64,000 nt of DNA, from positions 310,001 through 374,000 of the forward strand of contig NZ_CP013634.1 of the NCBI RefSeq assembly GCF_001664485.1, written 5' to 3'. Position numbers and translations under genes: made by a program. Every line of letters starts with the position of its first letter. Position 1 is the stretch's first letter. Shown here piece after piece: positions 8,802 through 29,646 of this stretch. Source of the DNA: Rhizobium sp. N324. GTDB taxonomy: Bacteria > Pseudomonadota > Alphaproteobacteria > Rhizobiales > Rhizobiaceae. The notes under the pieces were generated by a model that had not been told where the DNA came from, ran no database searches, and was given only the letters and a program-made list of their open reading frames with translations.

Positions 8802-9200
8802 TCAGTTGCCTGCCGGAATACGGGCGATGACCTTTATCTCGAAATCGAAGCCGGCGAGCCAGTTGACGCCGAGCGCCGTCCAATTCGGATAGGGCGGCTT
8901 GCTGAAAACCTCTTGCTTGACGGCCATGATGGTTGCGAACTGGTTTTCAGGGTCGGTGTGGAAGCTGGTGACATCGACGATATCATCCAGCGTGCAGCCG
9001 GCTGCGCTGAGCGTCGCCTTCAGATTCTCAAAGGCCAGCCTTACCTGGCTTTCGAAATCGGGTTCGGGTGTTCCGTCCGAACGGCTTCCGACCTGTCCGG
9101 ACACAAACAGCAGATCGCCCGATCGGATGGCGGCGGAATAGCCGTGCTCTTCGTAGAGAGCGTGCCTGTCGGCAGGAAAGATTGCTTCGCGTTGGGTCAT
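8802..9200 (-). CDS. RidA/YjgF-family protein
   Basis: A 132-residue protein starting MTQREAIFPADRHALYEEHG. The RidA/YjgF/UK114 fold is shown by LLFVSGQVGSRSDG, the central QVRLAFENLKATLSAAGC and the C-terminal ALGVNWLAGFDFEIKVIARI. Canonical RidA uses an arginine in an IPxxR-like motif to hydrolyse reactive enamines; here the C-terminal motif is altered, so this is probably a diverged subfamily with an unknown substrate. The ATG at 9200 matches the family N-terminus; longer frames run through the regulatory region. It is transcribed divergently from a TetR gene and is its probable target. Confidence 0.85.
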   Translation of the reverse strand: MTQREAIFPADRHALYEEHGYSAAIRSGDLLFVSGQVGSRSDGTPEPDFESQVRLAFENLKATLSAAGCTLDDIVDVTSFHTDPENQFATIMAVKQEVFSKPPYPNWTALGVNWLAGFDFEIKVIARIPAGN

Positions 9201-9262
9201 TCTGATCTCTCTTTGTTGGTGACGGCGACCGATACCCTTCACACGTCCATGCGAGATTTGGT

Positions 9263-10818: not shown

Positions 10819-11736
10819 TTACTCCTTCACCGCCCCGGTCATCGAGGACACGTAATAATCCACGAAGAACGAGTAGAGGATGACCACCGGCAGCGAGCCG
10901 AACAGCGCGCCCGCCATCAGCGCCCCCCATTCGAAGACATCGCCGCGCACCAGTTCGGTCAGCACGCCGACGGGAATGGTTTTATTCTCCGATGACTGAA
11001 TGAAAGTAAGGGCATAGATGAATTCGTTCCAGGATAGCGTGAAGGCGAAGATGCCGGCTGAGATCAGCCCCGGCACGGCCAGCGGCAGGATGATCTTGGT
11101 CAAAATCTGCCACCGGTTGGCGCCATCCACCAGGGCGCTTTCTTCCAGTTCGAAGGGGATCGAGCGGAAGTAACCCATCAGCAGCCAGGTGCAGAAGGGA
11201 ATGAGGAAGGTCGGATAGGTGAAGATCAGCGCCAGCCGGGAATCGTAAATCCCGAGCTTGAAGACGATGAAGGCAAGCGGGATGAAGAGGATCGAAGGCG
11301 GCACGAGATAGGCGAGGAAGATCACCAGGCCGACGGAGCGTGAGCCGGTAAAGCGGACGCGCTCGATCGCATAGGCGCCGAGGACCGACGCCACCAGCGA
11401 GAGGAAGGTGGAGCAGACCGCGACCAGCATCGTGTTCCACAGCCAGCCCGGATAGGATGTCTCGAGGAACAGGTATTTGATGTGCGCAATCGTCGGTCCG
11501 ACCACCCAGAACGGGCTGTAATTTGTATAGTCGGTCAGCTGCTCGTTGGGTTTCACCGCGGTGATCGCCATCCAGTAAAACGGGAAGAGCAGCACGAAGA
11601 CGAAAACCGCCATCGGCAGATACAGCATCACGATCCGCCGCGGCAGGCGGTTCAGATAGCTCATGCCTTCGGCATTGTCGGTCACGACCTGATCTGCGGT
11701 GTTGGCCCGATCGGCTGTGTTTGAATGTGTCGACAT
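10819..11736 (-). CDS. Sugar ABC transporter permease (MalG/CUT1 type), duplicate copy
   Basis: A 305-residue CUT1 permease whose protein sequence is identical to that at 27746-28663. Six membrane segments can be placed, and the EAA loop ELEESALVDGANRWQILTKI lies near residues 205-225. The ATG at 11736 is chosen because AGGAG is 7 bases upstream; the ATG at 11742 is too close. Unlike the other copy it has no intact partner permease, binding protein or ATPase: upstream lie only fragments (11747-12196). It may be expressed from a chance promoter or be silent. See the repeat entries for the extent of the copy. Confidence 0.85.
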   Translation of the reverse strand: MSTHSNTADRANTADQVVTDNAEGMSYLNRLPRRIVMLYLPMAVFVFVLLFPFYWMAITAVKPNEQLTDYTNYSPFWVVGPTIAHIKYLFLETSYPGWLWNTMLVAVCSTFLSLVASVLGAYAIERVRFTGSRSVGLVIFLAYLVPPSILFIPLAFIVFKLGIYDSRLALIFTYPTFLIPFCTWLLMGYFRSIPFELEESALVDGANRWQILTKIILPLAVPGLISAGIFAFTLSWNEFIYALTFIQSSENKTIPVGVLTELVRGDVFEWGALMAGALFGSLPVVILYSFFVDYYVSSMTGAVKE

Positions 11737-11746
11737 CGTCATTCTC

Positions 11747-11997
11747 CTAATCCTGGCCGCCCTGCTGCCATTTGCGCCGCTGCAGGCCGAAGAAGCTGAA
11801 CATGATCGCGCCGAGCAGGAAGGGCACCATGGCGACGGCGATCGCCGCACCCTCGCCGAGCTGGCCGCCGGGAATGCCGCGCTGGAACGACAGCGTCGCC
11901 ATCAGATGCGTGGCGTTGACGGGGCCGCCCTTGGTCAGCACGTAGATCAGCTGGAAATCGGTGAAGGTGAAAAGCACTGGTAAGGTCATCACGACGG
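11747..11997 (-). pseudogene. C-terminal fragment of MalF-type sugar permease
   Basis: This stretch matches the last third of the permease gene at 28674-29606 (protein FTFTDFQLIYVLTKGGPVNA through FFGLQRRKWQQGGQD). The rest of the gene is missing: at 11997/11998 the sequence jumps to the binding-protein gene, with 891 bp of the intact copy (28925-29815) absent. A few substitutions occur next to the junction. The fragment lacks the N-terminal membrane segments and EAA loop and cannot work as a permease. Confidence 0.9.
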
Positions 11998-12196
11998 GGC
12001 GGCGGCATACATGTCGACCAGAACGTAGTCGGCCATGGTTGCCGCCGAGGCGTAGCCGAGCGGGCCGGCATAGCCGTTCGGGCGCAGTTTTTCCGAGGCG
12101 CGCGCATAGGGCGCGTGGACCGGATCGGCGGTCCAGACCGGGTTCTTGGCGAAGGCCTTGAGCGGCTGGCAGCAATAGGCGCTGCATAGCTCGACT
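11998..12196 (-). pseudogene. C-terminal fragment of sugar-binding protein gene
   Basis: The minus-strand frame reads AYCCQPLKAFAKNPVWTADP through ATMADYVLVDMYAA, matching the C-terminal region of the binding protein encoded at 29741-31045. Upstream of AYCC the fragment carries VELC, which in the intact protein lies about 37 residues earlier (SVELCQTS), so a second internal deletion of roughly 110 bp has occurred. Homology ends near 12196. The true C-terminus is also missing because of the 11997/11998 junction. Confidence 0.85.
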
Positions 12197-12492
12197 GCCC
12201 GTCGCTCCAGGCAGAAAAAATTACGTATAAATATCAATGGCATAATTTTCGCTTCCAGTCACGGATGGCAGCGGCGCGAATCCGCTTGACTATTAGAGAG
12301 AAATGACTAACTCTTGTAATCGATTTCAATGACGTCAGACAAGGATAGATATGAAGTCATTAGTGTATATTCGGCGTATTACAGTGATATATCGGAGGTT
12401 AAACAAAGTATAGCTAGGTCTTAATGCGCCGTCATGCATGTAGTTTGTTGAGCTATAGGCGATCTTTCTAAAGAAAGAAGAGGAAATTTGAG
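12197..12492. other. AT-rich regulatory gap before the LacI-controlled operon
   Basis: This 296-base stretch is more AT-rich than its surroundings and holds no gene. It contains a TTGACT element at 12286-12291, a LacI-type operator at 12315-12328, and a 16-base inverted repeat (7-base arms TCTTTCT/AGAAAGA, 12463-12478) just before the ribosome-binding site of the next gene. The transcription start is therefore probably between about 12310 and 12460. Confidence 0.55.
12315..12328. promoter_or_regulatory. LacI-family operator (site 1)
   Basis: TGTAATCGATTTCA is a near-perfect 14-bp palindrome centred on CG, the hallmark of LacI/GalR operators (6 of 7 base pairs match). It is the exact reverse complement of the site at 17095-17108. 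It lies 165 bases before the RidA-like start codon, downstream of a TTGACT element, where a repressor would block transcription. The LacI gene at 18841 is the obvious candidate regulator. Confidence 0.75.
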
Positions 12493-12861
12493 TTGGCAGG
12501 TAATGACATCGTTCGGCATCCCATTGAAAACGGAAAATCACGCCTCACTATCTACAAGCTTCCGGGTGGCGGCGGCTTTGTTTGGTGCGTCGCCGGCCCG
12601 CCGGACACGTCCAAGGATCTGCCTGGCCAGACGCACGACATCTTGGCAGAGGTCGACAAGCGGCTGGTTGAAGGCGGGACCGACCGTTCAAGAATTGTGA
12701 AAGCTGAAGTGGTTGTCACCAACCATGATCGCAAACCCGAATTCGATGCCATCTGGCGCGAATGGATGCCCGAAGGTTGCGGTCCGGTTCGCTCGTTCGT
12801 TCAGTCGATCATGCCCGATGGCGACCAGGTTGAGGTCATCATCACCGCGGTCCTCCCTTGA
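12493..12861 (+). CDS. RidA-like protein, first gene of LacI-controlled operon
   Basis: A 122-residue protein beginning MAGNDIVRHPIENGKSRLTI from a TTG start. AGAGGAAA lies about 8 bases before this TTG and no ATG is better placed. The pattern HDILAEVDKRLVEGGTDRSR, then IVKAEVVVTNHDRKPEFDAI, and the closing PDGDQVEVIITAVLP follow the RidA/YjgF fold, but the usual catalytic arginine motif is replaced by GCGPVRSFVQ, which keeps an arginine after PV. RidA proteins remove reactive enamine/imine intermediates or act on related amines. It overlaps the amidohydrolase gene by 4 bp, so the two products probably act on the same compound. Confidence 0.8.
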   Translation: MAGNDIVRHPIENGKSRLTIYKLPGGGGFVWCVAGPPDTSKDLPGQTHDILAEVDKRLVEGGTDRSRIVKAEVVVTNHDRKPEFDAIWREWMPEGCGPVRSFVQSIMPDGDQVEVIITAVLP

Positions 12862-14153
12862 AGTTGAAATCCAACCAGTTACTCGAGCGGTGGTCGCGCA
12901 TGCATGATAGTTCCGATAACTCGCTGGCTTGCGGAAGCAGAATCGAAAGCAGACTGCAGTTGCTAGAGCAATTTTCGGCAGAGAAGGGAGCGTTAGCACG
13001 CTTCCCTCTTTCTCCTGAACTCGCCGCAGCGAATGCATTAGTGCGGGACTGGATGCAGGACGCAGGGATGACTGTCTGGCAGGATGCCGGCGCCAATATC
13101 ATTGGCCGCTATGAAGGTCATCGAGGCAGTCTCCCCGCACTGGTCTTGGGATCGCATCTCGATACTGTTCGGGACGCTGGCCGTTATGACGGTATGCTCG
13201 GGGTCGTCGCGGCTATTGAATGCGTCGATCAACTGAACCGCCGGGGTGCTCGTTTTCCGTTCGCGATCGAGGTCATTGGATTTTGCGATGAAGAGGGCGT
13301 CAGATTCGGGACGAGCATCGTCGGCAGTCGGGTGGTCGCCGGCAGTTTCGACGCTGCCGAACTGCTTCGCGCAGATGAAAACGGCGTCTTGGCATTACAG
13401 GCGCTTACCGCCTCCGGTCTCGACGCGGATCGCATGCAGACCGCTGTGAGGCGTCCTGACGAAATCCTGGCGTATGTCGAATTGCATATCGAGCAAGGCC
13501 CGGTCCTGGAACGGCTCGGTCATGGTCTCGGATGCGTCTCAGGAATAGTCGGCGCCAGCAAGTTGGAGATCGTCCTGCGCGGCGAAGCAGGACATGCAGG
13601 TACAGTTCCAATGCAAGGGCGTCGAGACGCGCTGGTCGCTGCATCGGAATGCATCTTGGGTATTGAGACGATCGCTGCAAAAACCGGGGCAGTGGCAACG
13701 GTTGGGTATGTCGACGTCGAGCCGGGCTCCAGCAACGTCATTCCTGGAAAAACGTCCTTCGCCGTAGATATCCGGTCGCTCGATGACGAAGTGCGCCGGA
13801 ACACCGTCGTACTGATCCGCGAATGCGTTGCGGAAATCTGCGCGCATCGGAAGGTCCAACCAAAATTCACCCTCGCGCAGCGTCAGACCACTCCATGCTC
13901 GGAGTGGCTGCAAAATCAGATCGTTGAAGCAATTGACCGAGTTCAGGGAGCTTGCCCGGTTTTGCCAAGCGGAGCGGGGCACGACGGTATTTGGATGAGC
14001 AAAGTCTCCGATATCGGCATGATCTTCGTTCGATGCGCTGGCGGTATCAGCCACAACCCTGCCGAGTCAGTCTCTGTCGAAGATCTCGAGGGGTGCGCCC
14101 AAGCGCTCCTTCAATTCATAGCCAATTTCGAGCCGCCTGGGAAAGCGGCATAG
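12858..14153 (+). CDS. M20-family amidohydrolase (allantoate / N-carbamoyl-amino-acid type)
   Basis: A 431-residue metal-dependent hydrolase of the allantoate amidohydrolase/N-carbamoyl-L-amino-acid hydrolase group. Visible ligands and catalytic residues are H100 and D102 (GSHLDTV), D111 (YDGMLG), E145-E146 (CDEEGVRF), H210 (VELHIEQGP), H246 in the dimerisation motif GHAGT and a C-terminal histidine in GISHNPAE. The family opens C-N bonds of ureido or amide substrates in the cytoplasm. Translation probably starts at TTG 12858, which overlaps the RidA stop; ATG 12900 is an alternative that loses only 14 poorly conserved residues. No other purine-breakdown genes are nearby, so allantoate itself is not favoured. 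Confidence 0.88.
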   Translation: MKLKSNQLLERWSRMHDSSDNSLACGSRIESRLQLLEQFSAEKGALARFPLSPELAAANALVRDWMQDAGMTVWQDAGANIIGRYEGHRGSLPALVLGSHLDTVRDAGRYDGMLGVVAAIECVDQLNRRGARFPFAIEVIGFCDEEGVRFGTSIVGSRVVAGSFDAAELLRADENGVLALQALTASGLDADRMQTAVRRPDEILAYVELHIEQGPVLERLGHGLGCVSGIVGASKLEIVLRGEAGHAGTVPMQGRRDALVAASECILGIETIAAKTGAVATVGYVDVEPGSSNVIPGKTSFAVDIRSLDDEVRRNTVVLIRECVAEICAHRKVQPKFTLAQRQTTPCSEWLQNQIVEAIDRVQGACPVLPSGAGHDGIWMSKVSDIGMIFVRCAGGISHNPAESVSVEDLEGCAQALLQFIANFEPPGKAA

Positions 14154-14202
14154 CGAAACGAATGTTCGGTCATGGGGACCAACAAAACAAAAGGGGAATA
14201 AA

Positions 14203-14994
14203 ATGAACGTCAAAAGAATTCTTACCGGCATTGCGATGACGACTGCCGTTGCTCTCTCGGCCTTGGCCGCCAAGGCTGATGTCCTCGATGACATCAAGAA
14301 GGAGGGCGTGATACAGATCGGCGTCCCGCAAGATGTACCGCCCTTCGGCATGGTAGGCCCGGACGGCACGCGTGTGGGTTACGATGTCGAAATGGCCGAA
14401 TTGATCGGCAAGAGGCTCGGAGTAACCGTGGAACTTGTTCCGGTTGCGGGCTCGAACCGGGTTCCCTTCATCGAGTCGGGCAGGGTCGCGCTCGTCATCT
14501 CGAGCCTGGGCAAGAACCCGGAGCGTGAAAAGGTGATCGACTTCACCGACGCCTATGCGCCTTTCTTCAATGGGGTTTTTGGTCCACCGGACCTTAAAGT
14601 GACGAAGGCCGAGGAACTTTCCCAAATCAAAGTCGGCGTTACCAAAGGCACGATCGAGGACCTTGAACTATCGAAGATCGCCCCTGCAGACGCTGACATT
14701 CGCCGCTACGACGGCAGCGCCGCTGCCTATAGCGCATATTTTGCTGGGCAGGTGCAAGCTATAGCCACGGGCAACGTCGTTGCCGCGTCTCTCATGGAGA
14801 CGGACCAAAGGAAGAAGATGGAGGTTAAGTTCGTAATCAACAAGTCGCCTTGCTTTATCGGCCTAAAAAAAGGCGAACCGGCGCTGCTCGAGGCCGTCAA
14901 CAAGATCATCAAGTCGGCCAAAGCTGACGGAAGCCTTAACGCGATCTCGCAAAAGTGGATGCACGCGGATTTGCCGCAAGATCTTCGCAACTGA
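14203..14994 (+). CDS. Amino-acid-type ABC transporter binding protein
   Basis: A 263-residue family 3 extracytoplasmic binding protein (SBP_bac_3). Residues 1-25 form a signal peptide (KRILTGIAMTTAVALSALAA). The mature part shows VIQIGVPQDVPPFGMVGPDG, GYDVEMAELIGKRLGV and the domain-closing GSAAAYSAYFAGQVQAIATG, all typical of polar-amino-acid importers. AAAAGGGG precedes the ATG. It is the periplasmic receptor of the importer encoded by the next three genes, and a strong stem-loop follows its stop codon. Its neighbours (amidohydrolase, glucosidase) suggest the ligand is not a simple amino acid (inference). Confidence 0.92.
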   Translation: MNVKRILTGIAMTTAVALSALAAKADVLDDIKKEGVIQIGVPQDVPPFGMVGPDGTRVGYDVEMAELIGKRLGVTVELVPVAGSNRVPFIESGRVALVISSLGKNPEREKVIDFTDAYAPFFNGVFGPPDLKVTKAEELSQIKVGVTKGTIEDLELSKIAPADADIRRYDGSAAAYSAYFAGQVQAIATGNVVAASLMETDQRKKMEVKFVINKSPCFIGLKKGEPALLEAVNKIIKSAKADGSLNAISQKWMHADLPQDLRN

Positions 14995-14999
14995 GCAAC

Positions 15000-15025
15000 T
15001 GGCCAATAGCTTTCGCTATTGGCCA
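15000..15025 (+). promoter_or_regulatory. Stem-loop between binding-protein and permease genes
   Basis: TGGCCAATAGC and its exact complement form an 11-bp stem with loop TTTC, beginning 5 bases after the binding-protein stop and ending 13 bases before the permease start. There is no T-run, so it is not a classical terminator. Hairpins in this position commonly protect the upstream mRNA and let the binding protein be made in excess over the membrane subunits. Confidence 0.75.
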
Positions 15026-15038
15026 AGCGAGGAACAAG

Positions 15039-15701
15039 ATGTTTAGTTTCAGCTGGATAGGCGAATACGCCGGTTTGCTCGCCAAATGCATCTTCGTCAC
15101 GCTGGAGCTGGCGGTCGTCAGTTCAGCGTTTGGGATGCTTTTGGGTATCCTTCTAGCGTGGGTTCTTACGTGGGGACCGAGAGTCTTTCGGCCTGCCGTA
15201 AAACTCTACATAGAATCTATCCGCAACACACCGTTCATGATCCAACTCTTCTTCCTATACTTCGGGCTGCCGCAGCTTGGAGTGGAGATGGAGGCACCAA
15301 CGGCTGCCTACCTGGCAATGATCCTCTATGTTGCGGCCTATTGCACCGAGATCATTCGCGCTGGATTGAATGCGACGCCGAGGGGCCAGGTCGAGGCTGG
15401 CGTAAGCCTTGGCATGTCGAAGAACGAAACCTTCTTCTATATCCTGCTTGTGCCAGCACTTCAGCGCGTTTGGCCGGCGCTGTCCTCGCAAATCGTCATT
15501 TCGATGCTGGGATCGGCCGTAGTGTCGCTCATTTCCGTACAGGATCTCAGTTACGCGACGTCCTTTATTGAAACCAGGAATTTCCGCTCGTTCGAAACAT
15601 ATCTCTTTTCAACGCTCGCATATCTGCTCCTCGCGGTGGCGCTTCGAAGATTGCTTGCACTCGTACCCGTGTTCTTCTTTTCGAAGGGAAGTACGCCATG
15701 A
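15039..15701 (+). CDS. Amino-acid-type ABC transporter permease (HisM/HisQ family)
   Basis: A 220-residue inner-membrane subunit. It has an N-terminal membrane segment (LLAKCIFVTLELAVVSSAFG), the family motif YIESIRNTPFMIQLFFLYFG, an EAA loop around ATPRGQVEAGVSLGMSKNET and further hydrophobic segments. The ATG at 15039 follows GCGAGGAACAAG; the frame is open upstream into the binding-protein gene but that part is not homologous. It overlaps the next permease by 4 bp. Confidence 0.9.
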   Translation: MFSFSWIGEYAGLLAKCIFVTLELAVVSSAFGMLLGILLAWVLTWGPRVFRPAVKLYIESIRNTPFMIQLFFLYFGLPQLGVEMEAPTAAYLAMILYVAAYCTEIIRAGLNATPRGQVEAGVSLGMSKNETFFYILLVPALQRVWPALSSQIVISMLGSAVVSLISVQDLSYATSFIETRNFRSFETYLFSTLAYLLLAVALRRLLALVPVFFFSKGSTP

Positions 15702-16357
15702 TCGAATATACCAACTGGGAGATATTTCGTAACCTTCTTTTGGGAACGCGGTGGACTGCATTACTATTTCTTGTGTGTCTGTTCGGAGGCGGAATCCTGG
15801 GAGTGGTTCTTCTTTTCGCAAGAATCTCCGAAAACAGATTTTATAGGAAGCTGGCATGGGGCTATATCGAATTCTTCCAAGGCACGCCTCTCCTGATGCA
15901 GTTGTTCCTGTTCTTCTTCGGACTCGCCTTGGTGGGACTAAAGCTCCCCGCTTGGGCCGCGGCCAGTATCGCGCTTATTTGTTGGGGTGCCGCTTTCCTT
16001 GCGGAGATTTGGCGGGGCTGCGTTGAATCAATTGCGAAGGGACAGTGGGAAGCGTCTGCAAGCCTTGGCATGGGACGCCTACAGCAGATGCGCTATGTCA
16101 TCGTCCCTCAGGCCACAAGAGTTGCGATCGCTCCTACGGTCGGCTTTCTCGTGCAAATCATCAAGGCAACGGCGTTAACCTCAATCATAGGGTTTGTGGA
16201 GTTGGCCCAAGCAGGAAACGTCATCGTCAATTCCACCTTCATGCCTTTCACCGTCTACGGCTACGTCGCCCTGATCTATTTCGCGCTTTGCTGGCCATTG
16301 TCGGCGGCGAGCAAGCTGATTGAGGAGAAGCTCAATGCCAATAATCGCAGTGCGTGA
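15698..16357 (+). CDS. Amino-acid-type ABC transporter permease, second subunit
   Basis: A 219-residue partner permease with YIEFFQGTPLLMQLFLFFFG and the EAA loop VESIAKGQWEASASLGMGRL near residues 110-130; LVQIIKATALTSIIGFVELA is characteristic of the C-terminal half. It overlaps the previous permease (ATGA) and extends 23 bases past the ATPase start, so translation is tightly coupled. The two permeases form the heterodimeric channel. Confidence 0.9.
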   Translation: MIEYTNWEIFRNLLLGTRWTALLFLVCLFGGGILGVVLLFARISENRFYRKLAWGYIEFFQGTPLLMQLFLFFFGLALVGLKLPAWAAASIALICWGAAFLAEIWRGCVESIAKGQWEASASLGMGRLQQMRYVIVPQATRVAIAPTVGFLVQIIKATALTSIIGFVELAQAGNVIVNSTFMPFTVYGYVALIYFALCWPLSAASKLIEEKLNANNRSA

Positions 16358-17060
16358 ACTGAGAAAAAGCTATGGCCATCTCGAGGTCCTTAAGGGGATC
16401 AACCTCGATATTGAGGCGGGCGAGGTTGTGGCCATTATCGGCAAGAGTGGTTCAGGAAAGAGTACGTTCCTCCGGTGTATCAACGGCCTTGAGACAATCT
16501 CCGACGGAACAGTGGAAGTTGCCGGCGAATACCTGGACTACAATGAAGCGCAGTTGCGAAAACTGAGGCTGAAGGTGGGCATGATCTTCCAGCAGTTCAA
16601 TCTCTTCCCCCATTTGTCGGCAGGGCGAAACGTCATGCTGGCGCAGAAGGTAGTTCGTGGCACACGTGCCTCGGAAGCCGAAGCCATTGCTCGCCAAATG
16701 CTTGCGAAGGTAGGACTTGCGGAAAAATTCGAAGCCATGCCTGGTGAACTGTCCGGCGGCCAGCAGCAGCGCGTCGCCATAGCTCGAGCGCTTGCCATGC
16801 ATCCCGTGGCCTTGCTCTGTGACGAGATCACATCGGCGCTTGATCCGGAACTTGTTTCGGAGGTTCTGGCCGTTGTTAAGGGCCTCGCGAAAACGGGTAT
16901 GACTTTAGCGATGGTCACCCATGAAATGAGATTCGCTCGCGAGGTCTGCAATCGCGTAGCCTTCATGCACCAAGGCAAGGTGCATGAAATAGGCCCGCCG
17001 GAAGAAATCTTTGTAAACCCGCAGACCCCGGAACTCAGGCAGTTCCTCGGGGCGGCGTGA
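16335..17060 (+). CDS. Amino-acid-type ABC transporter ATPase (GlnQ family)
   Basis: A 241-residue ATPase with Walker A GKSGSGKS, Q-loop FQQFNLFPHLSA, signature LSGGQQQR, Walker B ALLCDEITSALDPE and switch MVTHEMRFAREV. The length and the LFPHLSAGRNV stretch are typical of PAO-type (polar amino acid and opine) ATPases. The ATG at 16335 has GAGGAG 7 bases upstream. It ends the first transcription unit of the module; a second operator lies 35 bases downstream. Confidence 0.93.
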   Translation: MPIIAVRELRKSYGHLEVLKGINLDIEAGEVVAIIGKSGSGKSTFLRCINGLETISDGTVEVAGEYLDYNEAQLRKLRLKVGMIFQQFNLFPHLSAGRNVMLAQKVVRGTRASEAEAIARQMLAKVGLAEKFEAMPGELSGGQQQRVAIARALAMHPVALLCDEITSALDPELVSEVLAVVKGLAKTGMTLAMVTHEMRFAREVCNRVAFMHQGKVHEIGPPEEIFVNPQTPELRQFLGAA

Positions 17061-17094
17061 CGCGAAATCCCCCTCCCCGAGATCCCGTCTGATT

Positions 17095-17108
17095 TGAAAT
17101 CGATTACA
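17095..17108. promoter_or_regulatory. LacI-family operator (site 2)
   Basis: TGAAATCGATTACA is the exact reverse complement of site 1 (12315-12328). It sits 14 bases before the start codon of the alpha-glucosidase gene, in the 62-bp gap after the ATPase. It could control a separate internal promoter, act as a roadblock, or loop with site 1 about 4.8 kb away. Confidence 0.75.
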
Positions 17109-17122
17109 GATACGAGAGCGAA

Positions 17123-18817
17123 ATGAACTCTGTCCAAGCAAACGAGCAGCAAACCCCTTGGTGGAAATCCGCGGTCATTTACCAGATATACCCCAGAAGC
17201 TTCCTTGACACGAACGGTGACGGCGTAGGTGATCTGAGGGGCATTATTCAGAAGCTGCCTTACATCAAGTCGCTGGGCGTCGATGCAATCTGGCTCGGCC
17301 CGATCTGCTCTTCTCCGAATGACGACATGGGGTATGACGTCAGTGACTATCGTCAGATCATGACCGAGTTCGGAACGATGGCGGACTTCGATGAGCTCAT
17401 GAGCTTAGCAAAAGCTGCCGAGCTGAAAGTCATTGTCGACCTCGTTCTCAACCATTCCTCCGATGAGCATTCTTGGTTCATAGAGTCGAGGTCGTCGCGG
17501 GACAATCCTTATCGAGATTACTATATTTGGAGAGATGCCAAAGGTAACGGCGAGCCCTCAAATTGGGAATCGGTATTTAGCGGCTCCACCTGGGAGTTCG
17601 ATGAAGCTTCGGGTCAATACTATCTCCACCTATATAGCCGCAAGCAGCCGGATCTTAACTGGGAGAATCCCGAGGTCAGGCGTGAGCTGTTCAATGTGGT
17701 TCAGTTTTGGATAGATAAGGGCGTCGATGGATTTCGTCTCGACACAATTACGACGATTTCCAAAGCCCCAGACTTCCCGGACGCCCCGGTGGTTGATTCA
17801 ACGCGAAGCCGACAGCCTGCAACGCAGTATTACATGAATGGTCCGCGGATGATGGAATATCTTCGCGAATTCCACGATGTGTTGCTGTCCGATCCTGCGC
17901 TGGTCACGATTGGCGAAGCCCCAGGCGCCACCCCCTTGCAGGCGCTCGATCTGATCGACAGCAAGGCTGGGGTTATGGATATGGTAATCCAGTGGGAGCA
18001 TATCGAAGCCGATCCTGGCACTGGTGGAAAGTGGGGACCGGAATGGTGGACGGTTCCCCATTTCCGGAAGATTATGTCTGCCTGGCAAAGAGGCCTCGCC
18101 GGGAAAGGATGGAACACCCTCTATCTCAACAATCATGATCAGCCGAGAGCTGTATCCCGCTTCGGCGATGACGCGAAATACCACAGCGAGTCTGCCAAGA
18201 TGCTCGCAACATGCATCCATCTCCTCCAGGGCACGCCTTTCGTATACCAAGGGGAAGAAATCGGCATGACGAACGTCGCCTTTGCCTCGATTGGCGACTA
18301 CCGATGTGTCGAAACCCTCAATATGTATCAAAAGGAGCGAGCTGCTGGTGTGAGCGATGCCACGCTCATGGAACGCATCCATCGCAAGAGCCGCGATAAC
18401 GCCCGCACGCCAATGCAGTGGACGGGCAAACCTAACGGGGGCTTCACCGGGGCGAAGCCATGGATTGCCGTCAATCCGAACTATGCCGCCATCAACGTCG
18501 AAAAACAGGAAGACGATGTTCTGTCGGTCTTGAATTATTATCGAAAGCTTATCGCATTGCGGAAGTCGAATCCCGTCATCGTTCACGGCTCTTATGCGGA
18601 TGTCGATACGAATAGTGATTGGGTCTATGCCTTCAAGCGCTCGCGCGATGGGACCGAACTCCTTTGCATCAATAATTTCTCGGCCAACGACATTCCGTTC
18701 CGTGCTCCGCTCCCTTCGAACGCTGACTCCATTGAGGTGATTATCGGAAATTATGAAGATGATTACGCAAGGAGCGTGCGTCCGTTCGAAACTCGGGTGT
18801 ATAGGTATAGAACATGA
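17123..18817 (+). CDS. GH13 alpha-glucosidase
   Basis: A 564-residue cytoplasmic glycoside hydrolase family 13 enzyme of the alpha-glucosidase/oligo-1,6-glucosidase group. Conserved regions are all present: DLVLNH (106-111), the nucleophile D207 in GFRLD, the acid/base E265 in VTIGEA and D339 in NNHDQ; QPDLNW lies at 175-180 and a calcium-site-like DTNGDGVGDL at 29-38. The residue after the nucleophile is threonine, which in this group favours alpha-1,4 (or less strict) over strict alpha-1,6 linkages. No signal peptide is present, so it acts on an imported alpha-glucoside. Its operator (17095-17108) ties it to the importer and amidohydrolase. Confidence 0.92.
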   Translation: MNSVQANEQQTPWWKSAVIYQIYPRSFLDTNGDGVGDLRGIIQKLPYIKSLGVDAIWLGPICSSPNDDMGYDVSDYRQIMTEFGTMADFDELMSLAKAAELKVIVDLVLNHSSDEHSWFIESRSSRDNPYRDYYIWRDAKGNGEPSNWESVFSGSTWEFDEASGQYYLHLYSRKQPDLNWENPEVRRELFNVVQFWIDKGVDGFRLDTITTISKAPDFPDAPVVDSTRSRQPATQYYMNGPRMMEYLREFHDVLLSDPALVTIGEAPGATPLQALDLIDSKAGVMDMVIQWEHIEADPGTGGKWGPEWWTVPHFRKIMSAWQRGLAGKGWNTLYLNNHDQPRAVSRFGDDAKYHSESAKMLATCIHLLQGTPFVYQGEEIGMTNVAFASIGDYRCVETLNMYQKERAAGVSDATLMERIHRKSRDNARTPMQWTGKPNGGFTGAKPWIAVNPNYAAINVEKQEDDVLSVLNYYRKLIALRKSNPVIVHGSYADVDTNSDWVYAFKRSRDGTELLCINNFSANDIPFRAPLPSNADSIEVIIGNYEDDYARSVRPFETRVYRYRT

Positions 18818-18840
18818 ATCGCTGAAAAAGACGGGGTCTA

Positions 18841-19839
18841 ATGACGAGGAAAGTAGGGAAGCTGTCTATCCAGGACATCGCAGAGATGGCTGAGGTTTCG
18901 ACGGCAACCGTATCCAGGGTGGTCAACGGATATCCGCACATCACACCGGAGAAACGGGAGCGCGTCCTTAAGGTGATCAAGCAGATGCAGTACGAGCCAA
19001 GCTCGATTGCACGCGAGTTGCGTATGTCGCAGACGCGGCGGATCATGGTTACGGCGGCAAACCTTACTTCCCCTGTCGTCGATGAATTGTTTCGGGGGAT
19101 GGAGCGCCGAGCGACGGAAGGAGGGTACAAGGTATTTTTTGCTCCAACCTCGAAAACCTACGACCGTGAGGTAGATCTCATGGATCAACTCGCAAAACGG
19201 GTCTTTGACGGCGCAGTCCTGTTCGGTAGTACTTTATCGGCCAAGGAGCTTGAAAAGGCTGCGAAGCGGTACAACATCGTACAATGTAGCGAATTCGTGC
19301 CTGCGCGGGTTGCGGGCGTTTCGATTGACGACGAGGCTGCCGCAAAAGACCTGACGGCCTATCTCCTATCGCATGGTCATAAGAGGATTGGTTTGCTGCG
19401 CAAGAGTTCGACCTACTCTGGCCAAGCGCGTGAGCGAGGCTATCGAGCGGCTTTGAAAGAAGCAGGCATGGCTGCTGATACCCCTCTTATTTTCGAGGCT
19501 GACTACACATATCAGGGCGGTATCGATGCAACCGCTACACTTCTTTCGTCCCATCCCGACATCACGTCAATATTCTGCACCAACGACCTGATGGCATTGG
19601 GGTGCATGAATGCCCTTCGCGCTTCTGGACGAAAAGTCCCAAACGATATCACCGTCGTTGGTTTTGACGGGACGATTGAATCCACAATGTGCGAGCCACA
19701 AATAACCACTATTTCGCAGCCGCACTTTGAAATCGGATATTGTTCTATGGATACCTTGATCAATACCATTGAAAGTGGCAGGCGGCAGTCTATGCATCGC
19801 TTCTTGCCCCATACACTAACGATCCGCGGATCCGCTTAG
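18841..19839 (+). CDS. LacI-family transcriptional regulator
   Basis: A 332-residue regulator with an N-terminal LacI helix-turn-helix (LSIQDIAEMAEVSTATVSRV, then VNGYPHITPEKRERVLKVI) at about residues 8-50 and the hinge helix PSSIARELR. The periplasmic-binding-protein-like effector domain includes GAVLFGSTLS, HKRIGLLRKS, FCTNDLMALGCMNAL and VVGFDGT. It begins 24 bases after the glucosidase stop and is probably co-transcribed with it. The paired 14-bp operators in this module have the geometry bound by this family, so it likely represses both units until a sugar effector arrives. Confidence 0.92.
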   Translation: MTRKVGKLSIQDIAEMAEVSTATVSRVVNGYPHITPEKRERVLKVIKQMQYEPSSIARELRMSQTRRIMVTAANLTSPVVDELFRGMERRATEGGYKVFFAPTSKTYDREVDLMDQLAKRVFDGAVLFGSTLSAKELEKAAKRYNIVQCSEFVPARVAGVSIDDEAAAKDLTAYLLSHGHKRIGLLRKSSTYSGQARERGYRAALKEAGMAADTPLIFEADYTYQGGIDATATLLSSHPDITSIFCTNDLMALGCMNALRASGRKVPNDITVVGFDGTIESTMCEPQITTISQPHFEIGYCSMDTLINTIESGRRQSMHRFLPHTLTIRGSA

Positions 19840-20311
19840 CGGCAAAAGCGGAACACGCGGCTCCGGCAGGATCAAGCTTGCTTCGACGCGCTGACGCCAA
19901 TGCGGGTCGAAGCATAATCGAGGCCGAAATCCACTTAGCGAAACGTTGCAAGCTGTTCAGGCAAACCGAGCTATCTCTGGTAGGACCGGCGCTCCACCTC
20001 CAATAGAAGAGCCGACGTACTTTGACGGGGGCGCCTTGACCCCTTCGCAGTACTTCAGGTGACGATCGTGCCACCGCCCGGGCGGGCATGATGACCCTGA
20101 AGTGCTCCCTGATTTGGGCGGGAGCTGGAATTTCCGGGGTTATAGCTGAGTTTGGCGGGGATGCCGGTGAGCTGTTCATAAGCGAAATCGGCACTCTACC
20201 TATCGCGCTATGTTCGCCAAGTGCAGTTTTTGCATTCGAACAAGCGTTTTTTGCCACTCGTGTTCGCCTTCGGCTGGCAACTAGATTGCCGCTTGTTTGA
20301 GGGGCGGACGG
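19840..20311. other. Intergenic stretch, no gene recognised
   Basis: These 472 bases hold only frames without family resemblance on either strand; the longest (minus strand, 155 codons) has an amino-acid make-up typical of a shadow frame. A decayed gene or IS remnant is possible but nothing specific could be identified. The promoter of the EamA gene must lie near its right end. Confidence 0.45.
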
Positions 20312-21199
20312 ATGGGCGTGAGATTTGCCGATGTTCCGGCATTGGCAGGGATTCCACTGTCTTTGGCGGCTTATTTTCTATTCAGTTCCAGCGACATGCT
20401 TGTAAAGGCGTTGACGCGGGAAGTCCCGGTTTTCCAGGTTGTCCTGCTTCAGGTGGCCTTCGCGTTCATACCGTTCATGCTTGTGGTGCTCCGGCGCGGC
20501 GGCTTCAGCAGACGTATCAGAAATCGCTCGCTGGTCGCCATTCGCGGCCTGCTCGCGGGCGTCAATACGCTTTGCGGCTTCTACGCCTTCTCGGCGCTTC
20601 CCCTGGCGGAGGTCTACGCGATCGTTTTCTGCACGCCGATCGTCGTTACGCTCGCTTCCATTCCCGTTCTCGGGGAAACCGTCGGAATGCACAGGATCGC
20701 CGTCATCGTCGCCGGCTTCCTCGGAATTCTCGTCATGATCGATCCGATCGCCACCCATTTCAGCCTGGCGCATCTGTCGGCCTTCGGCAGCGTCTTGGCG
20801 AGCGCGGCCGTCATCCTGATCATGCGGAAAATCGGCAAAGAAGAGGACCGGGTCAGCATGGTCGCAGCCGTGCTGGCCGGAATCCTGCTCGTCGGTTTGC
20901 CGGGCGCGCTCGTCCAATGGCAGCCTCTGAACGGCAAGGCCCTGCTCATTGCCGCCGGTTCCGGCTTTTTCATGGGCGTTGCGCAATTCGTGTCGCTCGA
21001 AGCCCTTCGCCGGGCGCCTGCGTCGGTAATCGCGCCCCTGCAATATACGATGCTCGTCTGGGCGCTTGCCTACGGCGTCGCGATATTCGACGACCCTGTG
21101 AAAGCCAATGTGCTGGCCGGAGCGCTGATCGTCATCGCCGCCAATCTTTATAACTTCCATCGGGAGCGCCTGCGCGCCCGGCGGATTATCGAGGCGTGA
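20312..21199 (+). CDS. EamA-family (DMT) transporter
   Basis: A 295-residue membrane protein of the drug/metabolite transporter superfamily with about ten membrane segments in two EamA repeats. Landmarks are AYFLFSSSDMLVKAL at the N-terminus, LAEVYAIVFCTPIVVTLASI in the first repeat and SVIAPLQYTMLVWALAYGVA in the second. Members usually export amino acids or metabolites; the substrate is unknown. The ATG at 20312 is preferred over a TTG 15 bases upstream. It is convergent with the LysR gene, 17 bases apart. Confidence 0.88.
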   Translation: MGVRFADVPALAGIPLSLAAYFLFSSSDMLVKALTREVPVFQVVLLQVAFAFIPFMLVVLRRGGFSRRIRNRSLVAIRGLLAGVNTLCGFYAFSALPLAEVYAIVFCTPIVVTLASIPVLGETVGMHRIAVIVAGFLGILVMIDPIATHFSLAHLSAFGSVLASAAVILIMRKIGKEEDRVSMVAAVLAGILLVGLPGALVQWQPLNGKALLIAAGSGFFMGVAQFVSLEALRRAPASVIAPLQYTMLVWALAYGVAIFDDPVKANVLAGALIVIAANLYNFHRERLRARRIIEA

Positions 21200-21216
21200 G
21201 ATCGATGAGGCGACCG

Positions 21217-22092
21217 TCAGGCGCCGAGATTATCGACGAGATACTGGCGAAGTCGCGCGATGGCGGGCTCGTTCCACCGGCTCTTGGAGGCATAGAAATA
21301 ATAGGAGTCCAGGTAGGTTTCCGTTGCAACCGCTTCCACCAGCCGGCCCTGACCGATTTCGGGCGCGACCAGGATCTCGTTGGCAAGCGCCACGCCCTGG
21401 CCGATCGCCGCGGCCTCGATGACGATATGCGCGTAGCCCAGCTTCTGGCCGCCGAGCGTCGAGGGAGCCTTGACGCCATTGGCGTGCAGCCATCTCACCC
21501 AAGCGTCGGTGGTCTGCTCGTGAAGCAGGGGAACCGAGAGCAGGTCGCGCGGCTCCGCCACCGGATGGCGTTCCAGGAAGTCGCGGCTGGCGACGGCGAT
21601 ATGCCTTGGCCGATAGAGTTCGACGGAGTTGCTGTAGGCGATGTACTCCCGCCCGTAGTGAACGGCGACATCGGCTTCGAAGCGCCGGAAATCCGGAAGA
21701 TGATCGGTTGCCCGCAACAGCACGACATCGACCCGGGCGGCGCGGTTGATCTCTTCGATCCGTGGCATTAGCCACGATTTGTTGAGGCCCGGTCCGCACC
21801 ACACCTTCAGCTGCTGGTGGCCCGACGGGCGAAGCATGAATGTCGCGTCGTCGATATGGTCGAATGCCACGGCGATACGCTCGTGATACTCCTTTCCCGC
21901 ATCGGTCAAACGCGTCTCGGCAAAGTTGCTGTCGAGCAGTTTGACCCCGAGCCAATTCTCGAGCTTGCGGACATGGCGCCCCACCACGGTGTGGTGGATC
22001 GACAGATTTTCCGCGGCCGAGCGGAGACTGCCGAGCCGGGCGACGGCATCGAAGGCCCGCAAGGCGGTGAGTGGTGGCAAATTACGAGGCAT
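21217..22092 (-). CDS. LysR-family transcriptional regulator (GcvA-like)
   Basis: A 291-residue regulator. The helix-turn-helix spans LPPLTALRAFDAVARLGSLR then SAAENLSIHHTVVGRHVRKL at about residues 5-45; the effector domain contains WLMPRIEEINRAARVDVVLL and AVHYGREYI. The start MPRNLPPLTALRAF matches the GcvA-type N-terminus; in-frame ATGs at 22134 and 22140 are alternatives. It diverges from the isomerase/DUF1080/importer operon, the classical LysR layout, and a T-N11-A palindrome lies between (22155-22167). Confidence 0.9.
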   Translation of the reverse strand: MPRNLPPLTALRAFDAVARLGSLRSAAENLSIHHTVVGRHVRKLENWLGVKLLDSNFAETRLTDAGKEYHERIAVAFDHIDDATFMLRPSGHQQLKVWCGPGLNKSWLMPRIEEINRAARVDVVLLRATDHLPDFRRFEADVAVHYGREYIAYSNSVELYRPRHIAVASRDFLERHPVAEPRDLLSVPLLHEQTTDAWVRWLHANGVKAPSTLGGQKLGYAHIVIEAAAIGQGVALANEILVAPEIGQGRLVEAVATETYLDSYYFYASKSRWNEPAIARLRQYLVDNLGA

Positions 22093-22154
22093 CGAACCCA
22101 CGGTTTCGTAAGGAGGCGGGACGAAAACTATCATGTGCATTTTTCGCAGTGTGG

Positions 22155-22167
22155 TGCATTTCGTGCA
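22155..22167. promoter_or_regulatory. Candidate LysR-binding box
   Basis: TGCATTTCGTGCA is a TGCA-N5-TGCA palindrome that fits the T-N11-A rule for LysR regulators. It lies 63 bases upstream of the assumed LysR start and 120 bases upstream of the divergent operon. A further GTGCATTTTTCGCA sequence just to its left could be a second half-site. Confidence 0.45.
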
Positions 22168-22287
22168 TTCCGGTTAGCGTTTTTTGCACCTCCCCGGGGC
22201 TCACGTTCGGCGCGATGGTCTTTCGCATGGAAACAGCTGAAGCGTTTTCGTTTTCCACCAAGACATCGAACCAGAGGATCAACTCCC

Positions 22288-23223
22288 GTGAGAATCGGTT
22301 TTTACACGAACTATTCCAAGGAAACCGCCGAGTTCGCCCATGAGGTCGGCTTCACCAGTCTGCAGCTCTCCGCCTGGCCGGGTTCGGCCCTCGACGCCAA
22401 CACGACGACCGACGCCGAGCTCGCGGAAATCCGCAGGGATCTCGACAGCAAGAATATCCAGATCTCGGCTCTGGGATATTATCCCAACTACCTGCATCCC
22501 GACGATCATGAACGCGAGGCGGCGCAAGCTTACCTGCCCAAGGTCATGAACCTCGCCTCTCGCCTCGGCGTCGAGGTGGTGGCGACCTTCGCCGGCCAGG
22601 ACCCGCGGCTCAATGTCGAGGAGAACATCCCTGCTTTTAAGGAGCTTTTCTCCCGGTATTGCGATCTCGCCGAAAAATCGAACGTGAAGATCGCCCTCGA
22701 AAATTGCCCGATGATCAACGTCGTAACGATGAAGGGCAACAACATCGCCTACAGCCCGGAAATCTGGGACGTAATCTTCGACGCCGTTCCCTCCGACCGC
22801 CTCGGCCTCGAATTCGATCCGTCGCATCTCGTCTGGCAGGGCATCGATTACTGCCAGGCGATCAAGGATTATGCCAGCAAGGTATTCCATGTTCACGCCA
22901 AGGACATGGAGATCGACCGGAAGATCCTCGCCCGGAGCGGGATTCTCGGGCGCTCCTTCGCGCCGAAAAAGGGCCTCGACCGCCGCTGGTGGCGCGCGCG
23001 CGCGCCGGGTTGGGGCGAGGTCGACTGGCCGAAGTTCATCAGCGCCGTCATCGTCTCGGGCTACCAGGGCAATCTCGACATCGAGCATGAGGATGACGTC
23101 TTCGCGAGCATGCAGACGATCCACTCGATCAGGTCGGAGGCCGACGTGGTCAGCAATTACAGCCAGGAGCGCGCCGGCTTGCGGCTCGGCTACAACACGC
23201 TTTCCAAGCTGATCGTGACGTGA
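22288..23223 (+). CDS. TIM-barrel sugar isomerase/epimerase (AP endonuclease 2 family)
   Basis: A 311-residue protein beginning MRIGFYTNYSKETAEFAHEV from a GTG start. The xylose-isomerase-like/AP_endonuc_2 barrel is shown by GFTSLQLSAWPG, ALENCPMINVV (metal Glu), LGLEFDPSHLVWQGIDY (Asp/His), KVFHVHAKDMEID (His) and the C-terminal LDIEHEDD (Glu), together a plausible divalent-metal site. Relatives isomerise or epimerise sugars, or deglycosylate 3-keto-glycosides. It opens the operon divergent from LysR and is 15 bases before the DUF1080 gene, a pairing known from 3-keto-glycoside catabolism. The frame is open far upstream, but that part is antisense to LysR. Confidence 0.85.
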   Translation: MRIGFYTNYSKETAEFAHEVGFTSLQLSAWPGSALDANTTTDAELAEIRRDLDSKNIQISALGYYPNYLHPDDHEREAAQAYLPKVMNLASRLGVEVVATFAGQDPRLNVEENIPAFKELFSRYCDLAEKSNVKIALENCPMINVVTMKGNNIAYSPEIWDVIFDAVPSDRLGLEFDPSHLVWQGIDYCQAIKDYASKVFHVHAKDMEIDRKILARSGILGRSFAPKKGLDRRWWRARAPGWGEVDWPKFISAVIVSGYQGNLDIEHEDDVFASMQTIHSIRSEADVVSNYSQERAGLRLGYNTLSKLIVT

Positions 23224-23238
23224 GGCGGGGAGGTTCAG

Positions 23239-23910
23239 ATGAGCAATTCAGCCGATATTTCCACCCTTGAAATCGTCGAGCCGACTGAAAAAATCGTGCT
23301 CTTCAACGGCAAGGATCTTTCCGGATGGTTCTCGGATATTCCGGCGCGTGACGAAGACCCGTCGTCGCCCGATATCGTCGAAGTCAATGATGGCGTCATC
23401 GTCACTCCCGGCAAGGCGGTGGGACATCTGGTTTCGGAAAACGCGTTTCGGAACTACCGCCTCGAAGTGGACTACCGATTGTCCGGCGAGGGCGGTGGCG
23501 GAAGCATTCTCGTCCATGTCTCGAAGCTTCGCATGCTTCGGACGAAATCGAAGAACATTTTCCCGCAATCGCTCGACGTGAAGATCCGGCATCATGATGC
23601 AGGCGATATCTACTGCATCATCGACAACATCCTCTGTGACAATCCCGAACGGCGACCGCTGGAAAAGGGCCAAAAGCCCGGCGGCGGCGATCAGGATGGC
23701 CGCCACATCGTCAAGATCGTCGACGCCGAAGCTCCGCTCGGCGAATGGAACAGGATGGCGTTCGAGTGCAAGGGACGCGCCCTGCGCATCTGGCTGAACG
23801 GCGTCCTCGTCAACGACGGTTACGATTGCACGACCGATCACGGCAAGGTCGCGCTGCAGGTGACGGAGCAGCGCGTCGAGTTTCGCCGGGTGGAAGTTTT
23901 TCCGCTCTAA
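23239..23910 (+). CDS. DUF1080 protein (3-keto-disaccharide hydrolase family)
   Basis: A 223-residue beta-sandwich protein of PF06439. Diagnostic features are the opening IVLFNGKDLSGWFSD, the DYRLSGEGGGGSILVHVS strand region, PQSLDVKIRHHDAGDIYCI and the closing GKVALQVTEQRVEFRRVEVF. Family members hydrolyse or eliminate 3-keto-glucosides formed by oxidation at C3. There is no signal peptide, so it would act in the cytoplasm on an imported substrate. No Gfo/Idh-type 3-dehydrogenase is encoded in the operon; oxidation would have to be supplied from elsewhere, or the imported compound is already a 3-keto sugar derivative (inference). Confidence 0.85.
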   Translation: MSNSADISTLEIVEPTEKIVLFNGKDLSGWFSDIPARDEDPSSPDIVEVNDGVIVTPGKAVGHLVSENAFRNYRLEVDYRLSGEGGGGSILVHVSKLRMLRTKSKNIFPQSLDVKIRHHDAGDIYCIIDNILCDNPERRPLEKGQKPGGGDQDGRHIVKIVDAEAPLGEWNRMAFECKGRALRIWLNGVLVNDGYDCTTDHGKVALQVTEQRVEFRRVEVFPL

Positions 23911-23980
23911 TCGCCGGTATCGGCGCGCCGGCCAGCCCCGCGCGCCGATGCACCACAAACCGAAGTCGGCAGGTCTTACC

Positions 23981-24643
23981 ATGTATCAACTTCAATTTCG
24001 GGATGTGCTCTCTGCCTGGAACCTGTTCCTGGATGGGCTGCTGCTCACCTTGGGCCTGTCCGGCATTGCTCTTGGCGGCGGGCTGCTGCTCGGCATCGCC
24101 GTCGCCGTAACGCGCGTCTATGGGCCTGGATGGGCGGCAAGGACGGTCACCGTCTATATCGAGGTCATCAGGAACACGCCGCTTCTGGTTCAGCTCTTCA
24201 CAGTCTATTTCGGACTGCCGAGCCTCGGCATCCGCATCCCCGGGCTCTATGCGGCGATGATCTGCTTCGTCATGTATCTCGGGGCATATCTCGCAGAGAT
24301 CATCCGTGCCGGCATCGAGGCCGTTCCGCAATCCCAGAAGGAAGCGGGGGCATGCCTTGGACTGTCGGGCTACCAGGTGTTCCGGTACGTCGTCCTCGTG
24401 CCCGCCATCAAGGACATGTTCCCGGCGCTCGCCAGCCAGTTCGTCTTCTTCATGCTGTCGACCTCGGTGGTCTCGCAAATCGCGGTATCCGACCTGTTCC
24501 ACATGGGCTCGATCGTCCAGGCGATGACCTATCGCGACTTCGAGATCTACCTGCTCATCGGCGCGCTCTATCTGGCGCTCGCCCTTCTCTTCAGGGCCGG
24601 TTTCGCCACCATCTACCTGCTGTGCTTTGGAGGGGACGAATGA
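23981..24643 (+). CDS. Amino-acid-type ABC transporter permease
   Basis: A 220-residue HisM/HisQ-family permease. It contains VYIEVIRNTPLLVQLFTVYF, the EAA loop AVPQSQKEAGACLGLSGYQV and several membrane segments. The ATG at 23981 places the first segment (LFLDGLLLTLGLSGIALGGG) correctly. It overlaps the next permease by 4 bp and sits 70 bases after the DUF1080 gene on the same strand, so it is probably in the same operon. Confidence 0.9.
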   Translation: MYQLQFRDVLSAWNLFLDGLLLTLGLSGIALGGGLLLGIAVAVTRVYGPGWAARTVTVYIEVIRNTPLLVQLFTVYFGLPSLGIRIPGLYAAMICFVMYLGAYLAEIIRAGIEAVPQSQKEAGACLGLSGYQVFRYVVLVPAIKDMFPALASQFVFFMLSTSVVSQIAVSDLFHMGSIVQAMTYRDFEIYLLIGALYLALALLFRAGFATIYLLCFGGDE

Positions 24644-25290
24644 TCCGCGACATCCAACTGCTCGACTTGCTGACGATCGTCGAGGCCGCCGGAACCACCC
24701 TTCTCCTCTCCCTGGTGGCATTCGCCGGATCGTCTCTGCTCGGGCTTCCTATCGCCGCACTCCGCCTTTCCCGCATCCCGCCGGTCCGGTGGCTCGCGAT
24801 CGTCTATGTGCAAATCGTGCAGGGCACGCCTCTCTTGGTCTGGCTGTTCCTTCTGTTCTTCGGGCTCGCCACGCTGGGCTTCAACATTTCCGCCTGGCTC
24901 GCGGTCTCGATCGGCTTCTCGATCTACGGCGGCGCGTTTCTGGGGGAGACCTGGTACGGCGCCTTGCGATCGGTCTCGGCCACGCAATGGGAGGCGGCAT
25001 CCTCGCTCGGGCTCGGCATCGTTCACCAGTTCACGCGGGTGATCCTGCCCCAGTCCATCCGGATTGCGATTCCGCCGACAATCGGCTTTGCCGTCCAGCT
25101 TCTCAAGAACACCTCGCTCGCATCGACCATCGGCGTCTACGAACTGACCCAGAGCGGTCAATTCCTCTCCGCGGCGACCTACAAGCCGCTGCTCGCCTAT
25201 TCGATCGTCGCAGCGATCTACTTCGTCATTTGCTACCCGCTCACCACGTGGAGCCGCGGCCGGGAAAGGAAGCTTGATGTCAATCGTTGA
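24640..25290 (+). CDS. Amino-acid-type ABC transporter permease, second subunit
   Basis: A 216-residue partner permease with YVQIVQGTPLLVWLFLLFFG, the EAA loop SVSATQWEAASSLGLGIVHQ and LLKNTSLASTIGVYELTQSG. It starts within the previous gene's stop (ATGA) after GGAGGGG and runs 14 bases into the ATPase gene. Confidence 0.9.
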   Translation: MIRDIQLLDLLTIVEAAGTTLLLSLVAFAGSSLLGLPIAALRLSRIPPVRWLAIVYVQIVQGTPLLVWLFLLFFGLATLGFNISAWLAVSIGFSIYGGAFLGETWYGALRSVSATQWEAASSLGLGIVHQFTRVILPQSIRIAIPPTIGFAVQLLKNTSLASTIGVYELTQSGQFLSAATYKPLLAYSIVAAIYFVICYPLTTWSRGRERKLDVNR

Positions 25291-26008: not shown

Positions 26009-26030
26009 TCACCAAGAAAAGGGGAACCTC

Positions 26031-26828: not shown

Positions 26829-27052
26829 GAACTTATCAGGGTCGATCACAGCTGCGCAGCGATCGATCCCGATCCATCAAGAGCACGCGCAGCTATTACG
26901 CGCTTCGAAACTGATATTGTCGACAGCATGGCCGTCCTGTGCCCGTCATCGATGCGTTCGACCCTGCGCGCCGCATCTTACCGGACTCGATCCTGCCAAA
27001 AGCAACAATGCCATTCTTCTCCTCAACCTTCTGGACAGCCTGGAGACCGCAA
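26829..27052. other. Intergenic stretch after importer operon
   Basis: No gene is visible. A weak stem (TCGATC/GATCGA with an inner GCTGCGCAGC) near 26842-26866 may terminate the operon. The right end holds GGAG before the remnant MoxR start at 27053. Confidence 0.4.
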
Positions 27053-28663: not shown

Positions 28664-28673
28664 CGTCATTCTC

Positions 28674-29606: not shown

Positions 29607-29646
29607 TGCTTATCTCCAGATCGCGTTTGGACTCTCCGAGGAGCGT

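Follow-up and report, generated by a model that had tools for sequence, protein, structure and literature searches.

A horizontally acquired gene module of Rhizobium sp. N324 that may couple ureide scavenging to an alpha-glucosidase

The stretch analysed here (the window) comprises 64,000 nucleotides of Rhizobium sp. N324 and corresponds to positions 310001-374000 of contig 5 (504141 bases), which is likely a plasmid, in a genome of 6.97 Mb and six contigs. Positions 12493-19839 of the window hold a module of eight genes, all present, uninterrupted, nearly contiguous and on the + strand, whose families were assigned with Pfam and NCBIfam. The first gene encodes a divergent RidA-family protein with a TTG start (12493-12861; PF01042, 36.4 bits against a cut-off of 27.3). 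It is followed by an M20 amidohydrolase of the allantoate amidohydrolase type (12858-14153), which in the annotation of R. etli bv. phaseoli IE4803 starts at the equivalent of position 12900. A complete importer of the polar amino acid type (PAAT) comes next, consisting of a periplasmic binding protein of the SBP_bac_3 family (14203-14994; PF00497), two BPD-type permeases (15039-15701 and 15698-16357; PF00528) and a GlnQ-like ATPase (16335-17060; PF00005); the starts of the first permease and of the ATPase were taken from the IE4803 annotation. The last two genes encode a GH13 alpha-glucosidase (17123-18817; PF00128) and a LacI-family repressor (18841-19839; PF00356 and PF00532/PF13377). The same eight genes are annotated in identical order on plasmid d of IE4803. 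A sequence-only reading had named these families and called their combination unusual; the Pfam and NCBIfam assignments agree with it, and the combination did prove to be unusual.

Among named relatives, this IE4803 plasmid is the closest over the module; it matches the window in a single piece from 12219 to 26901 with 96.8% identity. The module, extending to 20221, forms the left 8 kb of this shared 14.7-kb acquired segment. In Rhizobium sp. K102 the match is restricted to 20221-26827 and a GH32 gene stands where the module would be, so the module is a separable part of the segment; the matches of S. fredii GR64 and S. americanum CCGM7 likewise start at 20221. The G+C content of the module genes is 0.526-0.577 (0.589-0.689 at third codon positions), and the next gene, of the EamA family, has values of 0.611 and 0.754. 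Close copies are rare: at E<=1e-180 the GH13 gene was found in one of 394 family genomes, its own; at E<=1e-170 two of the 148 genus genomes had a match, its own and one at 48% identity; and the M20 gene at E<=1e-100 was again limited to its own genome among those 148. Among plasmid records, IE4803 stood at 95.4% for the M20 protein, with the remaining 80 of 81 records below 60%; at 99.6% for the binding protein, where 34 of 299 records lay at 60-80% and 264 lower (next-ranked row, 58.6%); and at 97.7% for the GH13 protein, where one of 860 records lay at 60-80% and 858 lower. One database protein (P0001) is 98% identical to the M20 enzyme. The low G+C content, the rarity of copies at strict thresholds and the gene order kept in IE4803 together indicate that the module is a real, acquired unit rather than a chance cluster. 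The segment is flanked by a direct repeat of 1178 bp (left copy 10820-11997, right copy 27747-28924, 99.15% identity) made of host sugar-ABC genes and by a second one of 187 bp (98.9%) made of host sugar-transport genes, which suggests recent integration with duplication. The repeat regions as a whole span 10820-12184 and 27747-30002, and in the left repeat copy a cut permease gene is joined to a piece matching the gene that, in the same operon of Rhizobium sp. BT03, encodes the binding protein.

The M20 enzyme scored 497.7 bits against the curated allantoate amidohydrolase model NF006775 (PRK09290.2-5; cut-off 479). Its motifs GSHLDT, DEEG, HIEQG, HAG, NVIP, DIR, GAGHD and SHNPAE, which we take to serve as metal ligands and in carboxylate binding, are intact in an alignment with AllC, 3n5f and 4pxe. 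It is also a member of the wider hydantoinase/carbamoylase family (TIGR01879), and among solved structures the L-carbamoylase 3n5f matches it best. Two relatives of 52% and 51% identity (P0062 and P0093) are fusions with OHCU decarboxylase, the enzyme preceding allantoin in urate breakdown. The neighbourhoods of M20 relatives were surveyed in a sample of 385 genomes of the class, giving 25 loci besides the module with a reach of about 8 kb, several of which end at contig ends. OHCU decarboxylase genes lay within this reach in nine of them (L093, L100, L101, L102, L106, L107, L109, L116 and L117) and near none of the 13 PAAT loci from these genomes (L097 belongs to both sets). A second M20 gene, of the ArgE/DapE type and 63-90% identical to the Azospirillum copy, was seen beside or near the allantoate-type gene in 11 of the 25 loci (L094-L098, L101, L102, L105, L107, L109 and L117).

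The binding protein retains the arginine of the SSLGKNxER motif, and the TDN of AncQR reads TGN here, with Gly for Asp; Gly also replaces the first Thr of the AncQR stretch AGMTIT. We take it that the Asp contacts the alpha-amino group of the ligand and the Arg its carboxyl group. All 22 surveyed relatives of at least 55% identity have Gly at the Asp position, as does the best match of every locus surveyed (the 24 loci of the importer subfamily, L006-L029, plus L053 and L056); a second binding-protein-like sequence in L017 (43%) has Ser. In a second alignment Gly occupied the position in 13 of 14 rows and Ser in L127, with L053 present in both lists. A ligand other than a standard amino acid, as proposed earlier, is thus borne out as far as the predicted pocket is concerned, which is unlike that of ordinary amino-acid importers.

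The neighbours of this importer subfamily point to the ligand class. Among the 13 PAAT loci found besides the module in the 385 genomes, with markers sought within about 8 kb, five carried ureide genes (L097, L119, L120, L121 and L126, the middle three from one genus). L097 combines the importer with an M20 gene, L126 with AllE and ureidoglycolate lyase, and L119-L121 with allantoicase and ureidoglycolate lyase, the L119 allantoicase scoring 371.4 on TIGR02961 (cut-off 277.9). Near the L118 importer lay a distant ureidoglycolate-dehydrogenase-family gene, below its cut-off (185.7 against 496.2). In the set of named organisms an M20 gene of 38-39% identity occurred in two of the 24 subfamily loci (L014 and L025), and none of the 20 loci outside the importer subfamily (L030-L049) had a ureide marker. 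These neighbours, the OHCU fusions and the Gly for Asp support the idea of the sequence-only reading of a ureide-type amidohydrolase and a non-standard ligand of the importer. Several relatives of the importer have an FCD-GntR regulator, where the module has LacI instead, and a second member of the subfamily on contig 6 of the same genome also adjoins an FCD-GntR gene. The loci L119 (5798-11362), L120 and L121, from three species of that one genus, share a divergent PAAT importer, an FCD-GntR regulator, allantoicase and ureidoglycolate lyase, and the L119 type is a compact candidate for an allantoate uptake locus.

The RidA-family protein had no match in NCBIfam. The Arg of its GPVRS motif is present, and the position of the Glu which is presumably the catalytic partner in archetypal RidA seems, by eye, to be Ile. 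Relatives at E<=1e-15 were found in nine of the 385 class genomes, its own included. The protein alone was rejected as a guide to the substrate, as its relatives occur in several contexts. One of these is a locus of Sagittula stellata (NZ_CP155730; hydA - ABC - ridA - allE - M20 with a divergent PAAT importer), in which relatives of the binding protein (56%), RidA (58%) and M20 (42%) lie together with AllE. There the RidA gene stands between a PotD/PotF-type ABC importer and allE and M20, with the PAAT importer in opposite orientation. This locus differs from the module in having its own AllE, a hydantoinase-type enzyme and a GntR regulator, and no GH13 or LacI match was found in its 18-kb stretch. 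RidA also adjoins AllE in Roseomonas and in L082. An ordinary RidA gene in the left host flank of the window (8802-9209, - strand; PF01042, 108.4 bits) is apparently unrelated to the module.

Further ureide genes were sought in the host genome itself. AllE is encoded on the same contig 5 (275217-275972), 47 kb from the module, and ureidoglycolate lyase on contig 1 (3431085-3431558), close to a protein over the cut-off of TIGR03212, which we take to be the allantoinase PuuE. Three more distant full-length M20 relatives (35-36%) are present, so the host may already own an allantoate hydrolase. No allantoicase match was obtained in this genome, nor in the control genomes. In a stretch of contig 5 (about 268-276 kb; L087, 3765-11982), a peptide-type ABC importer, a RidA-like gene, a SelA-like pyridoxal-phosphate enzyme and AllE lie together, with asparaginase-like and aspartase-like genes (by eye) nearby.

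A ureide, most likely allantoate, is the substrate that these neighbourhoods favour. It could instead be that the importer and the M20 enzyme act on hydantoin-derived N-carbamoyl amino acids, the rest of the module working in the same way. The place of the M20 enzyme in TIGR01879, its best solved match, a Sagittula enzyme over the D-hydantoinase cut-off (TIGR02033) and an Asp/Glu/hydantoin racemase near the L128 importer would fit such substrates, but allantoicase, ureidoglycolate lyase, AllE and OHCU decarboxylase as neighbours belong to a purine/ureide route, and we regard carbamoyl amino acids as rather unlikely, if worth keeping in mind.

The module carries two putative operators of the LacI type. 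The first is the palindrome TTGTAATCGATTTCAA at 12314-12329, upstream of the RidA-M20-PAAT genes; the second, TTGAAATCGATTACAG at 17094-17109, is the inverted first operator (15 of 16 bases) and leaves 13 bases between its end and the start codon of the GH13 gene. Across the 6.97 Mb of the genome the exact core TGWAATCGATTWCA was matched twice, each time within the module; one mismatch gave five further places, of which the one examined lies inside a reading frame, and a reversed-pattern control gave none in the genome. A 15-base word, the longest length looked for, is common to both intergenic regions, and in 5000 single-base shuffles of these regions the longest common word was 13 bases, reached once. 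Both operators are identical in IE4803 although adjacent spacer bases differ. A palindrome with central CG repeated at the target promoters is the pattern expected of a local LacI regulon. The two copies, the only exact ones in the genome and unchanged in IE4803, make co-regulation of the RidA-M20-PAAT genes and the GH13 gene well supported at the sequence level, in line with the earlier claim of one regulator for all, and the neighbouring LacI protein would be the binder at both sites. Its relatives were dropped as a functional guide, since the next-ranked one on plasmids was only 36% identical.

The earlier proposal would have been weakened if the glucosidase gene were expressed independently, and the presence of the shared operator in front of this gene favours that proposal. 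In a rival reading, two functional units would simply be neighbours: a ureide operon, and a distinct sugar cassette of GH13 and LacI that was gained along with it. The GH13 gene with its operator and lacI would be a self-contained pair. The two nearest relatives of GH13 (78% and 73% identity) lie on contigs of 44597 and 21252 bases that do not appear among those of the best 120 M20 or binding-protein matches, a comparison that is indirect and covers the longest contig of each cluster only. The identical operator before RidA, with its exclusive and conserved occurrence, and the low G+C content and conserved order of all eight genes argue against two units, which we consider improbable.

The GH13 enzyme has its catalytic motifs, and its best solved match is the oligo-1,6-glucosidase 9u7v. 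Named matches of about 54-58% are oligo-1,6-glucosidases or alpha-glucosidases of Firmicutes (MalL type), and the stretch DTITTISK is common to the two closest relatives and P0124. It passed the broader model NF008183 (590 against 535), and an identity as TreC was rejected (TIGR02403, 659.1 against 799.05). An excerpt of PMC6981392 gives a rule, derived from yeast enzymes, by which Thr or Ala follows the nucleophile in maltases and maltase-isomaltases and Val in isomaltases. Here Thr follows the nucleophile Asp (GFRLDT), a difference from the isomaltase signature, and by this yeast-derived rule the enzyme would be of the maltase type, not an isomaltase. Its N-terminus is not signal-peptide-like; the enzyme looks cytosolic, and its substrate must therefore be imported.

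This last point bears on the earlier claim that the whole module serves one nitrogen-containing alpha-glucoside, e.g., a glucosylated ureide, which would be imported by the PAAT system, deglucosylated by GH13 in the cytosol, processed as the aglycone by M20 and RidA, and sensed by LacI. The PAAT importer is the only transporter of the module for the cytosolic-looking enzyme, its pocket departs from the standard one for amino acids, and its genes share the operator of the GH13 gene. However, with the near-identical IE4803 copy set apart, none of the 83 loci examined, a set that includes 20 from outside the importer subfamily, had a GH13 gene nearby, and neither did any of ten RidA loci (the Sagittula locus is counted in both sets). 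The co-occurrence test thus speaks against the glucosidase; PAAT, RidA, AllE and M20 stand together in Sagittula. Since GH13 was found at none of the 83 loci and the relatives of M20 and PAAT neighbour ureide genes, the evidence favours a plain ureide over a glucosylated amine as the substrate. With same-family importers sitting by plain ureide enzymes without GH13, and with no natural glucosylated ureide compound known to us, a route for a glucosylated ureide or another N-carbamoyl alpha-glucoside, with the conjugate as LacI inducer, is very improbable; if true, it would be a previously undescribed catabolic route.

We propose, with a probability of about 0.6, that the module was acquired horizontally and works as an operon under LacI repression that scavenges a ureide, most likely allantoate, and is coupled to an alpha-glucosidase. 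The PAAT importer would take up a carboxylated ureide without an ordinary alpha-amino group, and the M20 enzyme would convert allantoate to ureidoglycine, ammonia and CO2. The RidA protein may aid removal of a reactive imine arising from the unstable ureidoglycine, and AllE and ureidoglycolate lyase of the host could carry the breakdown through to glyoxylate, urea and ammonia. LacI would act on the two matching operators, before RidA and before GH13, and a plant alpha-glucoside or its product might be sensed by it, so that nitrogen scavenging and the cytosolic maltase-type glucosidase would be induced jointly.

A number of results weigh against this proposal. The ureide proposal has no need of a GH13 enzyme. 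The M20 enzyme shares only 31% identity with E. coli AllC and reached 217 bits on the AllC equivalog TIGR03176, far under its cut-off of 597.75, so it is kept apart from AllC orthologues, and the module has no allantoinase. In a tree of 15 sequences the enzyme and P0006 fall between the OHCU-fusion group and a group with the Sagittula M20, the L-carbamoylase 3n5f, 4pxe and AllC; the Sagittula M20 itself scored 447.8 on NF006775, under the cut-off. Neither AllE nor ureidoglycolate lyase lay within about 8 kb in any of the 25 M20 loci, and a PAAT importer was near one of them (L097). Ureide markers were absent from the other eight of the 13 class-sample PAAT loci and from 22 of the 24 subfamily loci in the named set. 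AllE was also missing from seven of the eight class RidA loci fetched, so the RidA protein supports the ureide proposal only in combination with the other genes.

Excerpts of two papers give a possible setting: allantoin and allantoate are the forms in which common bean exports fixed nitrogen (PMC9464200), and a Methylobacterium of soybean uses ureides, possibly as a parasite (PMC5017803). The only other named carrier of the module found, IE4803, is a bean-nodule isolate. The literature search found no paper combining alpha-glucosidase, allantoate amidohydrolase and LacI, and among the matches listed no title or abstract opening describes such an operon. If the proposal holds, a dedicated, acquired allantoate importer and hydrolase would permit a direct test of whether some symbionts retake nitrogen already loaded by the plant for export; control by a sugar-responsive switch would link such nitrogen theft to carbon supply in an unusual way. 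From the neighbourhoods one can also derive a testable class of ligands for this importer subfamily, which the sources label 'polar amino acid'.

The same acquired segment holds a second cluster at 20297-26828, with EamA, LysR, a xylose-isomerase-like TIM barrel, a 3-keto-disaccharide hydrolase (PF06439) and a PAAT importer. It is thus a second 'amino-acid' importer adjoining a sugar enzyme, and K102 carries this cluster without the module.

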